From an uncultured bacterium (GTDB lineage: Bacteria; Verrucomicrobiota; Kiritimatiellia; RFP12; UBA1067), in the NCBI GenBank assembly GCA_902780865.1, contig CACZHC010000015.1, positions 1 to 42,508 on the forward strand: DNA of 42,508 bases. Reading direction: 5' to 3'. Every line of letters starts with the position of its first letter. Within the stretch, counting starts at the first letter, position 1. Made by a program: the position numbers and the translations under genes. Of the stretch, positions 37,883-42,508 are shown piece by piece. The notes beneath the pieces are model-generated. The model had not been told where the DNA came from, made no database searches, and saw only the letters and a list, made by a program, of their open reading frames with translations.

Positions 37883-39535
37883 TTATTCGCCAAGGTTCTC
37901 GCCGTCGAAAACAAATTCTCCGCAATAACCCTTGAAGCCGTCATTATCTTTGGGCATGCAGACAAACACCCTGTACTCGAGCTTGTCATCCATCACCGGG
38001 ATCAGCACCGCAGAAGACTTATATGCCTTCCCGCCAGCGGTGCAGGTAACATCCACTACGCCCTTGTCGCGAATTTCAAATTTAAACACGCAATCATCTT
38101 CGGAGACACGGCAGGTCTTTCCGTCCAGACGCAACGCAACTTCCCCCCATTCGGGGTTGCTCTCCCACTCACAAGTCCACGCCGAGAAATCTGCGCACTT
38201 GACACCATCCGGCGTAATCTCCAAGTCGAGGTTGCGACTCTCACTGCCACAAGAGGACAAGACTTTCATCCTGCACTTTTCTCCCTTTTCGTCATACGAA
38301 GAGAATCCTCCGGCGCGCATGGTCCAGACATTGTCAACCGTCTTCCAACGTCCGGCGAGGATTCCGTCTTCCCCTATAACAAACAGCGCCGTGCCGTTCT
38401 TGCCTCCACCTGCGAACACTCCACTCGTCCAGCCCGGAAGGTTGCCGACAGTCGTCTTTTTGCGAATCGTCGTCGTCTGCCCCTTTCGGCTAATGCGCAT
38501 CACAATGTCAAAGACACCGCCCTTGGACGGAATTCCCGTAAAACAACGCTTCTTAGCATCAAACACAACCCCTGGAGGAAGACCTGACACCTCAATTGTC
38601 GCATCACGGGCATCCGGAAGCGCGTCCTGCGAAAGAGGCATGCCGACAAACCACCGTTCATCCCCCGAAGCCGCTCTCACAAGCCTCTTCGCCGCAGCGA
38701 CATCCGGTCCATCGCTTAACTTGAGGACTCGCTTTTCGGCAGCGGGCTTCGCAGCCAGGCCATCCCCGTTCTCATCCTGCCATATGCGCAACTCATCAAC
38801 CGCATAGTCACAATGGTTCTGCCCTTGCTCGTGGAACTCGCGCGCAAGGAACAGCATGCACGGCTGGGACATTGCCTTGCGAAACTTCTCAACTGCTTCT
38901 GCGTCAACATGCGAGTGTTCGAAATCCCCATTGATGGCAAGGATTTGTTCCCCATCGACAAAGACACGCGCCAAGTCGCGTCCGCCTTGCAACCCTGCGA
39001 GGTTCCACTGTATCAAATAATGGTGCCATCCCTTTGGGTCACTGTTTGGGAAGCAGGTCTTGTAGCTTATCCTCCAGCTAAAGCCCGGGAGGGAAGTGAT
39101 CCATCCCAAGTGATTCATTCGGAAATACCATCCGCTCTTTGCAACACCGTTATTCGCGTTAATCTCGAAGGCCATAACCATTTGGTTCGTGGTAGCGGAG
39201 TCAAACACGCTAAAAAACGTTGGGTCACCTGCATCACGGTACCAGTCGCGCGGATTGTCAATGCGAGCATGAAATTCTATTGCCCCTCGCTCGACAGGAA
39301 GCCCCTTGGGCAGAGGGAAGCCAACGCAACCGCTGCCTTGTTTCACTTGAAGAGCCTGCCCTTTCACTCCGTCGCAAAATGCAACTTGACGAGCGACAAC
39401 GGCAGGGTCGCCCACCTCGGGTCGCGACAGGGAACCATCCGAATCGAACGAGCATTGCAACACTGGCCTCCCGCCGCCAAAGAGCAACACAGGAATCATA
39501 CATATTCCGACTTGAATCAAAACGGATTGTTTCAT
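37883..39535 (-). CDS. secreted LamG-like/putative Ig domain protein
   Basis: A 550-residue protein with a hydrophobic N-terminus (MKQSVLIQVGICMIPVLLF). Residues of about 30-240 form a LamG/concanavalin-like sandwich (LQCSFDSDGSL, IEFHARI, GWHHYLIQWNL, ARVFVDGEQ, YAVDELRIWQDENGD). Residues of about 285-345 resemble a He_PIG-type Ig domain (VSGLPPGVVFDAKKRCFTGIP). The C-terminal 200 residues are beta-rich and unassigned. The ATG at 39535 has GGGGAGGTG upstream and overlaps the stop of the YfhO-like gene (ATGA); upstream in-frame ATGs fall inside that gene. Probably binds glycans at the surface; no catalytic motif seen. Confidence 0.75.
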   Translation of the reverse strand: MKQSVLIQVGICMIPVLLFGGGRPVLQCSFDSDGSLSRPEVGDPAVVARQVAFCDGVKGQALQVKQGSGCVGFPLPKGLPVERGAIEFHARIDNPRDWYRDAGDPTFFSVFDSATTNQMVMAFEINANNGVAKSGWYFRMNHLGWITSLPGFSWRISYKTCFPNSDPKGWHHYLIQWNLAGLQGGRDLARVFVDGEQILAINGDFEHSHVDAEAVEKFRKAMSQPCMLFLAREFHEQGQNHCDYAVDELRIWQDENGDGLAAKPAAEKRVLKLSDGPDVAAAKRLVRAASGDERWFVGMPLSQDALPDARDATIEVSGLPPGVVFDAKKRCFTGIPSKGGVFDIVMRISRKGQTTTIRKKTTVGNLPGWTSGVFAGGGKNGTALFVIGEDGILAGRWKTVDNVWTMRAGGFSSYDEKGEKCRMKVLSSCGSESRNLDLEITPDGVKCADFSAWTCEWESNPEWGEVALRLDGKTCRVSEDDCVFKFEIRDKGVVDVTCTAGGKAYKSSAVLIPVMDDKLEYRVFVCMPKDNDGFKGYCGEFVFDGENLGE

Positions 39536-41202
39536 TCTGCACCTCCCCGACTTGACTTTATAGACACACCTATAGTGATAATGGCAGAAAACACCGAAAC
39601 CAGTCCGAGGCAAAACGGCATGGTCTTGACAGGTTCGGGCTTTAGCGGCCTGGTGGGTTCCAAAACCTGCACAAGCAAGGCATCGTTTCCTCCAATCCAA
39701 TTTGCCACGGAAACAACATATCCCCCTCTAACCAATTCCGCCAACTGAGGCTGCATAAACTGTTGCCGAGACAGGACCGCCAGGCGAGAAGAACACCTTT
39801 TGAGAATCGCTCTTGAATAGTCAATCGGCGCACAGTACAAATGGGCAATGTAGGCAAGGTTGAACGCGCCAACCAAAACGATGCCTGCAACGACAATCCG
39901 AGAGAACTTCATCCTATGCAAAAGACAAAGGGCACGCTCTATTCCAAAGCCGGCAAGAACAGCAATGCAAAATTCCGTGAGATGATGCCATTTTACGGGC
40001 GCCCGCAAGTAGTCACCGAACGGCATTGCATAGACAAGTCGATAGACTGGCTCGCAATAACGCCCCAAGGAGAAAAGCCAGAAGAGGACTGCCGCGACAA
40101 CAAAAAAGACAAGCGTCGTACGATTATCGAAAAATACAAGCCGCTCCTTGTCGTTAGACGCACACCGCATGTCAGACTTCCAAGAAACAATCGCCATGAC
40201 GATGCCAAGAAGTGCCAGCAGGCAAGTGACCAACCCAACATAGAGCGAATGCTGGCGGTAGTTGCCAGCGGTAGCGCCATATGGACGACCCAAAGCGCCA
40301 GTATATGGCTTGACGCCCGTGCCCAGCTGCCGTCCTATTGAGAGCGTCAGAGGACAGCTTGTGTCACCATTGATACGTGGAACAAAGAACTCCAATGTCT
40401 CTTTAGGTGGAAGCGACCAGTTTGTTGCGAATATCCACCGTGCATCGGCATCTTCTTTGCCATCGCCAACCGAAGGAGCGCTTTTTGATTTTTCTATCTG
40501 TTCGTCTCGACTCGAAAGGTCCTTGGCAAAAGCAGAATATAGACTTGGTGCGGAAACTGCAAGAAAAACCACCGCAGCTACGAGAACACCTTTCATGGGG
40601 AAAGCGCGACTCTGCACAAAGAGAAACACTGCATATCCAGCTAAAAAGACCGCAAACAAAAGCCAGACATCAGGAGCATAGAAGCTAGCCCATGCTTCGG
40701 CAAGGCCAAGCAATGCCCAATAGCGGAACCCAAGCCCCTTAATGGCACGATCAAGAAGACCGAAAGCGAACACACCATAGCTCATCCACACAAACCAGTT
40801 GCCATGCCCCGCAGAATACAGCGTCAGTCCATATCCAGAAAACGCGAACAGGAGGCCAGCGCCATACGAGGAAATGGGCGAAAGACCACGCCCATGCAAA
40901 AACCAAGCCATTGCCAGCGCACCGAAATACGAAGAAACGACATATCGCAGTTGACAGCAAGTCAACGGAGATCCAATTAGTCCGGACCAAAGCACATCAA
41001 ATGGATGCGCTTTGCCCGTAGTCGCAAACATGTTCCACCAGTTTAGGAGCGTGTCGCTATATGAATTAGGAAAGAAAATGTCGTTGTCTGGAGCGACAAA
41101 TCCCATGTTTGGGCCCCACGACCCCCAAAAGACAATAGCGGCGCACACGGCGAAGACCGCCGTGAACGCCGCGAACCATCCCCATTTAGGGCTCAGGCGC
41201 AT
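39532..41202 (-). CDS. YfhO-like polytopic membrane protein (probable GT-C-type glycosyltransferase)
   Basis: A 556-residue protein with about 12 hydrophobic segments. PDNDIFFPNSYSDTLLNWWNMF follows the first helix, then LLFAFSGYGLTLYSAGHGNW and FGDYLRAPVKWHHLTEFCIAVLAGFGIE, which resemble bacterial YfhO family proteins; YfhO in Bacillus helps glycosylate lipoteichoic acid. It probably moves a sugar from a lipid carrier onto an envelope polymer. The ATG directly abuts the TAA expected for the ancestral atpK frame. It starts the polysaccharide block and is coupled to the LamG-like gene. Confidence 0.7.
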   Translation of the reverse strand: MRLSPKWGWFAAFTAVFAVCAAIVFWGSWGPNMGFVAPDNDIFFPNSYSDTLLNWWNMFATTGKAHPFDVLWSGLIGSPLTCCQLRYVVSSYFGALAMAWFLHGRGLSPISSYGAGLLFAFSGYGLTLYSAGHGNWFVWMSYGVFAFGLLDRAIKGLGFRYWALLGLAEAWASFYAPDVWLLFAVFLAGYAVFLFVQSRAFPMKGVLVAAVVFLAVSAPSLYSAFAKDLSSRDEQIEKSKSAPSVGDGKEDADARWIFATNWSLPPKETLEFFVPRINGDTSCPLTLSIGRQLGTGVKPYTGALGRPYGATAGNYRQHSLYVGLVTCLLALLGIVMAIVSWKSDMRCASNDKERLVFFDNRTTLVFFVVAAVLFWLFSLGRYCEPVYRLVYAMPFGDYLRAPVKWHHLTEFCIAVLAGFGIERALCLLHRMKFSRIVVAGIVLVGAFNLAYIAHLYCAPIDYSRAILKRCSSRLAVLSRQQFMQPQLAELVRGGYVVSVANWIGGNDALLVQVLEPTRPLKPEPVKTMPFCLGLVSVFSAIITIGVSIKSSRGGAE

Positions 41203-41614
41203 TTACTTGATGAACATGATCGCGATGATCGCGAACGCCGAAGTAGTTCGTGAGGCCCTGCCCAGTCTCGCCCTGCGCGTCGCAAGCTGCTGCTGCAGCA
41301 CGACCCTGGAAGAGCGCGGAAAGCCCGATGCCGAGCCCGGCGAAGATGCCGAGGATGATGCAGGGAACTCCGGCACCGGCGATGTCGCGCTTCATGAACA
41401 TGATGAACATGAGAATCATCCCGTACAGGGTCTGCGTGATGGGCGCACCTACGAGACCGAGTAGAATGAACGGTGCGGGCTTGCCAGCCGCATAGCACTT
41501 CTTCCATGCCCCGACCGCGGCGGACGCGGCGAAACCGGTGCCGAACGCCGATCCCGCGGCGCTCATTCCCAAGCAGGCGACTGCGCCTGCGATGACCAAT
41601 GCTGCTTCGTTCAT
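41186..41614 (-). CDS. atpK: V-type ATP synthase subunit K, last helix disrupted by a frameshift/deletion
   Basis: The proteolipid subunit of the membrane rotor. The ORF of 142 residues has three good helices: ALVIAGAVACLGMSAAGSAFGTG, FILLGLVGAPITQTLYGMIL and VPCIILGIFAGLGIGLSALFQGR, followed by the conserved AAAAACDAQGETGQGLTNYF. It then turns into the charged, non-membrane tail GVRDHRDHVHQVNAPEP and runs 17 nt into the next gene. One frame over, the same DNA encodes FAFAIIAIMFIK and a TAA that ends at 41203, one base before the next ATG. Neither frame contains the glutamate expected in the last helix. A small out-of-frame deletion, real or from assembly, is the simplest explanation. Confidence 0.85.
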   Translation of the reverse strand: MNEAALVIAGAVACLGMSAAGSAFGTGFAASAAVGAWKKCYAAGKPAPFILLGLVGAPITQTLYGMILMFIMFMKRDIAGAGVPCIILGIFAGLGIGLSALFQGRAAAAACDAQGETGQGLTNYFGVRDHRDHVHQVNAPEP

Positions 41615-41659: not shown

Positions 41660-42508
41660 TCAAGTGGATGTTTTGCGGAACGGACTAAACGCATAGCCCG
41701 CCCAAGTCACGCCCTTGTGGTTAGAGAACTCGAGGGTGTTGAGTCGCACCGCGTGGACGAGAATCGAGAGCCCCGCCATGGCGAAGTTGAGCCCGTGGCC
41801 AATAAGGAGGACGAGTATCATGCCGATGGCGGTAACCGGCTTTAGCCAGATCATGTCAGTGCAGTTGAAGATCGAAAGCGCCATGTCGTTGAAGTTCTCG
41901 GCGACCTTGACGGAAGCGAGCCCGACCGCAAAAAGGCGGACATACGAGATTACGTCGCCAAGCGCGCTCATGATGTTGAGCGGCAGCATGCCGAGCTCGA
42001 CGCCGCGAGTCTTCAGCTCGTCGCCCTTCAGCGTGAAGCCGAAGACGAGGACGAGTGATACCCCGAACATCCAAAACGCCCATGTCGGTATGCCGGAGAA
42101 TATTCCGACGATGGAGTTCGTGACGAGATACATGAAGAGGACGACTCCGGCCCAGCCGAACTGCGCGAGGCAGCGGCGGTCGTTGATGATCGTGATTCCA
42201 GTCCAGATTCGCGCGATCATCAGGTGGGAGACGCCGATCGTGAAGCAGAGAAGCATCATGTTCTTGTAGCTCGGGTCGGCGAGCCACTTCACCGTCGGCC
42301 AGTCGGCGCACCACGGAATCCCCGCGCCAAACCAGGTGTTCGAGAGCAGCCCCCAGAGAACCGTCGCGGACGAGAACACTGTCAGGAGCGTAAGCCAGCT
42401 CTTTGCGACAAGCGTCCGCTGATTGCGCGTCTTGAACCACCCGAAGATCGTGAGCGCGAGAATCAAGGCGCCATAGCCGCCGTCGCCGACGAGCATCGCG
42501 AAGAAGAT
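41660..42508 (-). CDS. atpI: V-type ATP synthase subunit I, C-terminal part (cut by window edge)
   Basis: The 3' part of the gene for the stator membrane subunit that couples ion flow to rotation; the reading frame stays open to the right window edge, and about 282 residues are visible. Marks of the subunit a/I membrane domain include FFAMLVGDGGYGALI, SALGDVISYVRLFAVGLASVKVAENF (with the essential Arg) and LIGHGLNFAMAGLSILVHAVRLNTLEFSNHKG. The gene ends 45 nt before the subunit K start, the usual I-K order. Cytoplasmic subunits (E, A, B, D) would lie outside the window. Confidence 0.92.
   Translation of the reverse strand: MFFAMLVGDGGYGALILALTIFGWFKTRNQRTLVAKSWLTLLTVFSSATVLWGLLSNTWFGAGIPWCADWPTVKWLADPSYKNMMLLCFTIGVSHLMIARIWTGITIINDRRCLAQFGWAGVVLFMYLVTNSIVGIFSGIPTWAFWMFGVSLVLVFGFTLKGDELKTRGVELGMLPLNIMSALGDVISYVRLFAVGLASVKVAENFNDMALSIFNCTDMIWLKPVTAIGMILVLLIGHGLNFAMAGLSILVHAVRLNTLEFSNHKGVTWAGYAFSPFRKTST

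Follow-up and report, generated by a model that had tools for sequence, protein, structure and literature searches.

A 41-bp deletion disrupts the V-type ATPase subunit K gene in a single draft genome from gut Kiritimatiellae

The gene at 41186..41614 (minus strand) of the window, the 42,508-nucleotide stretch of DNA analysed here, encodes the c-ring proteolipid, subunit K, of a bacterial V/A-type ATPase; the DNA comes from a gut bacterium of the Kiritimatiellae. We find a known gene whose copy here is broken, in a form confined to a single draft genome; codons 1 to 125-126 are intact, and the tail that follows is out of frame. The missing DNA, 41 bp in length, encodes the middle of the fourth helix including the glutamate of the motif GIVETV. 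Rather than new biology, the break most likely reflects faulty assembly or a chance mutation of very recent date.

Results

The subunit K reading frame specifies 142 amino acids and, as a sequence-only reading of this DNA had described, passes from the segment ending LTNYF into a hydrophilic tail, GVRDHRDHVHQVNAPEP, at the C-terminus. Its resemblance to V-type ATPase subunit K extends as far as residue 126, beyond which the protein is hydrophilic. It matches the curated family NF005174 above cut-off (138.8 bits; cut-off 127), the match being confined to residues 6-126 and reaching position 122 of the 143 of the profile. PF00137 gives no match to it and scores 30.1 bits with an intact relative, RGIG2266. 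Subunit K has four helices in two hairpins; here the place of helix 4 is taken by the hydrophilic tail, whose best 19-residue mean hydropathy is -0.9 versus +2.5 in relatives. The gene lies directly after that of subunit I (C-terminal part, 41660..42508, minus strand, intact as far as it goes and cut by the contig end), as do the NF005174 (PRK06649) subunit K genes of Kiritimatiellae MAGs recovered from the gut of ruminants and horses, and the order of subunits D and I, read across a 99-bp contig overlap, is that of the relatives. Compared with these Kiritimatiellae genes the window alone lacks the 41 bp, helix 4 and its glutamate, and has a frameshifted tail.

Nearest to the window are Kiritimatiellae-type MAGs, of which several come from ruminant gut samples: RUG14463 (L031), RGIG2266 (L032), RUG14632 (L033) and RUG12088 (L043). 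Alignment to the intact relatives yields a single best solution for the size and place of the deletion, 41 bp at 41236|41235 (junction 41235..41236, minus strand, also covered by a junction probe). With a 41-bp gap, one mismatch near the junction separates the window from RUG14632, against at least 18 for every alternative gap length between 38 and 44; over the whole compared stretch this gap leaves 6 mismatches with RGIG2266, 15 with RUG14632 and 28 with RUG14463. An out-of-frame deletion, as the sequence-only reading had proposed, is thus supported, but it comprises 13 codons and 2 bases where a few codons had been suggested. Since 41 bp is no whole number of codons, what remains of the original 3' end (41203..41235, minus strand) is read out of frame, both the end of helix 4 and the old stop codon. 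Shifting by one base does recover the hydrophobic FAFAIIAIMFIK followed by the ancestral TAA (41205-41203), as had been noted; this TAA directly abuts the ATG of the next gene at 41202, although it had been placed one base before it. The remnant is 97% identical over 38 bases to locus L001, where it is in frame. The next gene (39532..41202, minus strand) encodes a membrane protein of 556 aa that matches no Pfam family; the gene starts directly after the ancestral K stop, and the frameshifted K frame overlaps it by 17 bp. Homologues of this membrane protein are found at the same place in relatives, their body diverging.

Slippage between local repeats, which had been put forward as a possible trigger of the deletion, was rejected as its origin. 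The repeat GCGATCATC/GCGATCAT lies beside the junction, off the deletion ends, and is present unchanged in intact relatives; of the other direct repeats near the site, a 9-bp tandem sits just outside the deleted stretch and two more are not located at both ends. The placement of the deletion is unique, with zero microhomology at the junction. A hairpin-driven deletion was likewise rejected, the deleted 41 nt folding no better than shuffled sequences (z -0.19; wider context, z -1.44).

In NtpK of Enterococcus hirae, Na+ is bound by Thr64, Gln65, Gln110 and Glu139 with the support of Tyr68, Glu139 being the principal ligand (PMC2359735). The intact relatives carry T60, Q61, Y64, Q103 and E132 in the same order as NtpK Thr64, Gln65, Tyr68, Gln110 and Glu139 (PMC2359735), and the spacing from glutamine to glutamate is 29 residues in both. 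A profile search of the PDB for a subunit K template returned weak c-subunit matches only and missed NtpK, so the likeness to NtpK rests on motif and spacing. By motif the set of Na+ ligands is complete in the intact relatives and incomplete in the window, which keeps the threonine, the tyrosine and both glutamines but has lost the principal ligand. E132 is invariant among the aligned relatives and absent from the window in every frame, which bears out the earlier claim that the last helix and its essential glutamate are gone. The acidic residues left in the window protein are E3, D77, D112, E116 and those of the new tail; they are found at the N-terminus, in what the alignment suggests are loops, or in the hydrophilic tail, and none of them replaces E132. 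As written, the gene has lost this sequence, with three helices remaining, and would be a null allele, and by the established mechanism a ring assembled from its product could not carry ions.

That the shortened protein nevertheless functions, either because frameshifting restores the tail or because a ring devoid of the helix-4 glutamate has acquired a new role, strikes us as hardly credible. Such a reading would draw on the hydrophobic remnant and the old stop being kept in the other frame. Against it, the position of the remaining acidic residues offers no substitute, the old frame would leave a helix remnant of only 12 residues, and, with the glutamate codon missing from the DNA itself, neither frameshifting nor recoding restores the residue.

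The deletion is not shared by relatives. Over residues 1-125 the window protein is 100% identical to those of RUG14463, RGIG2266 and RUG14632; the contig of RUG12088 starts at codon 28, and residues 28-125 are identical as well. In all four a complete fourth helix with GIVETV follows the identical residues. Nonsynonymous and synonymous differences over codons 1-125 amount to 0 and 6 for RGIG2266, 0 and 15 for RUG14632 and 0 and 27 for RUG14463, and over 98 codons to 0 and 5 for RUG12088. Since all substitutions relative to these four genomes are synonymous, subunit K has undergone no decay beyond the deletion. Two substitutions in codons 28-125 are found in the window only, both synonymous, a count too small to weigh much by itself.

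A subunit K match is present in 58 of the 61 genomes of the genus, and the matches reach the end of helix 4 or near it except in the window and in two genomes in which the gene lies at a contig edge (G075, aligned to 140; G082, aligned to 75). A 21-base probe spanning the junction matches the window and no other sequence among the 61 genomes. A pattern search detected the helix-4 glutamate motif at 79 of 80 GTDB-scan loci, and the remaining one (L110) has the motif on separate reading. Among relatives readable through helix 4, none lacks it. Truncation throughout the family was therefore rejected; the sequence-only reading had allowed that relatives might naturally end with the same hydrophilic tail, and none does. 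In another MAG of the genus, G072 (L128, G072:C57:2900-4000), where the whole of K is covered, we observe an unrelated frameshift after TLY in the first hairpin, helix 4 being intact in the other frame.

The genome to which the window belongs is assembled in 178 contigs (3.36 Mb, 85.57% complete, 4.3% contaminated). Subunits A (contig C76), B (C54), D and I of the V-type enzyme are open in this genome, and so is a HydG-like gene on C42. The latter, a radical SAM gene (L130:4511-6091, G000:C42) that resembles HydG, lies directly upstream of subunit D, likewise in RUG14463 and RGIG2266. The C-terminal part of subunit I differs from that of RGIG2266 by 36 synonymous changes and a single nonsynonymous one; the remainder of the enzyme is strongly constrained. 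F1 alpha and beta were not found in the assembled part of the genome, and PF00137 has no match in it. PF00006 has four matches above cut-off: an SctN/FliI-like ATPase, V-type A, V-type B and Rho. The SctN/FliI-like export ATPase is encoded at L120 (G000:C62). PF00006 scores spread similarly across the genomes of the genus, the proteins being named for this genome only. An F-type enzyme as a backup was rejected, as PF00137 has no match and the PF00006 matches are otherwise identified. Because neither F-type c nor F1 subunits were found, the V-type enzyme is apparently the sole rotary ATPase, and a fixed null allele would therefore be expected to be costly.

A second K gene, which the sequence-only reading had raised, is unlikely. 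Searching the assembly reveals none, nor the missing 41-bp segment elsewhere in it. An intact second copy could supply the ring from the unassembled 14% or from an unbinned contig, the deletion being real; the incomplete assembly leaves room for such a copy, and in one relative (G026) a further K fragment lies at a contig edge. Yet, fragments aside, K is single-copy in genomes of the genus, and a DNA search of the genome that contains the window detects the region only once. We regard this combination as very improbable.

The window is a metagenome contig from a short-read assembly, and its end lies about 1.27 kb from the deletion. Positions 42410-42508 are identical over exactly 99 bp to the end of contig C42 (G000:C42:67553-67651); the overlap falls inside subunit I, and C42 carries the remainder of subunit I together with subunit D. 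The exact overlap makes it very likely that the two contigs are neighbours in the genome. Exact overlaps at contig ends are the trace of a de Bruijn assembler breaking at a branch, which indicates that the assembly graph branched near K.

Discussion

A question arises, does the deletion exist in the living organism? We lean slightly towards an assembly error, or a minor variant that entered the consensus without being fixed, over a real recent null. The deletion would then be unfixed in the organism, having arisen by error in the short-read metagenome assembly or in the library, or being present as a minor variant, in a region where the assembly graph branches, and the living population would most likely have an intact K. 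In favour of this are the privacy of the deletion to the window genome, the lack of decay in K beyond it with subunits A, B, D and I and the HydG-like gene all open, the cost expected of a null in what seems to be the only rotary ATPase, the 99-bp overlap at the nearby contig end, the contig of a near relative (RUG12088) that starts inside K, and the second MAG with an unrelated frameshift in K. False pseudogenes created by assembly errors have been documented in bacteria (PMC11017572). Such pseudogenes, like the one in the window, show a frameshift in an otherwise conserved gene that is absent from close relatives (PMC11017572), but the 41-bp gap is larger than one-base errors.

Other observations speak against an artefact. 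A 41-bp collapse is explained neither by microhomology nor by a repeat as long as the k-mer, synteny matches that of relatives on both sides of the junction, and elsewhere, where the window aligns to close relatives, gaps do not exceed 5 bp; since these aligned stretches contain no other long gap, the contig is not generally error-ridden. The same continuity of the contig across the junction, together with the remaining genes of the aligned stretch being intact, favours a genuine, very recent 41-bp deletion, one that is fixed or common in the strain, with a dead V-type ATPase and a cell presumably fermenting without a rotary pump, or declining. We hold this to be a real possibility, though a somewhat doubtful one, given that K is otherwise undecayed, that no sister genome has the junction, that the rest of the ATPase is strongly constrained and that the genome seems to encode no rotary ATPase besides the V-type enzyme.

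Whichever of the two applies, a caution follows for annotation. The curated model names the window protein subunit K above its cut-off despite the loss of the key residue, and pathway reconstructions would accordingly score this V-type ATPase as complete. We found no literature on the V-ATPase in Kiritimatiellae. Were the deletion both real and fixed, a gut bacterium would provide a natural knock-out of its sole rotary ATPase. That a gut Kiritimatiellae lineage now lives without any rotary ATPase, the c-ring of its only one having just been lost, is, in our estimate, unlikely; were it true, the pump would be dispensable in the gut niche.
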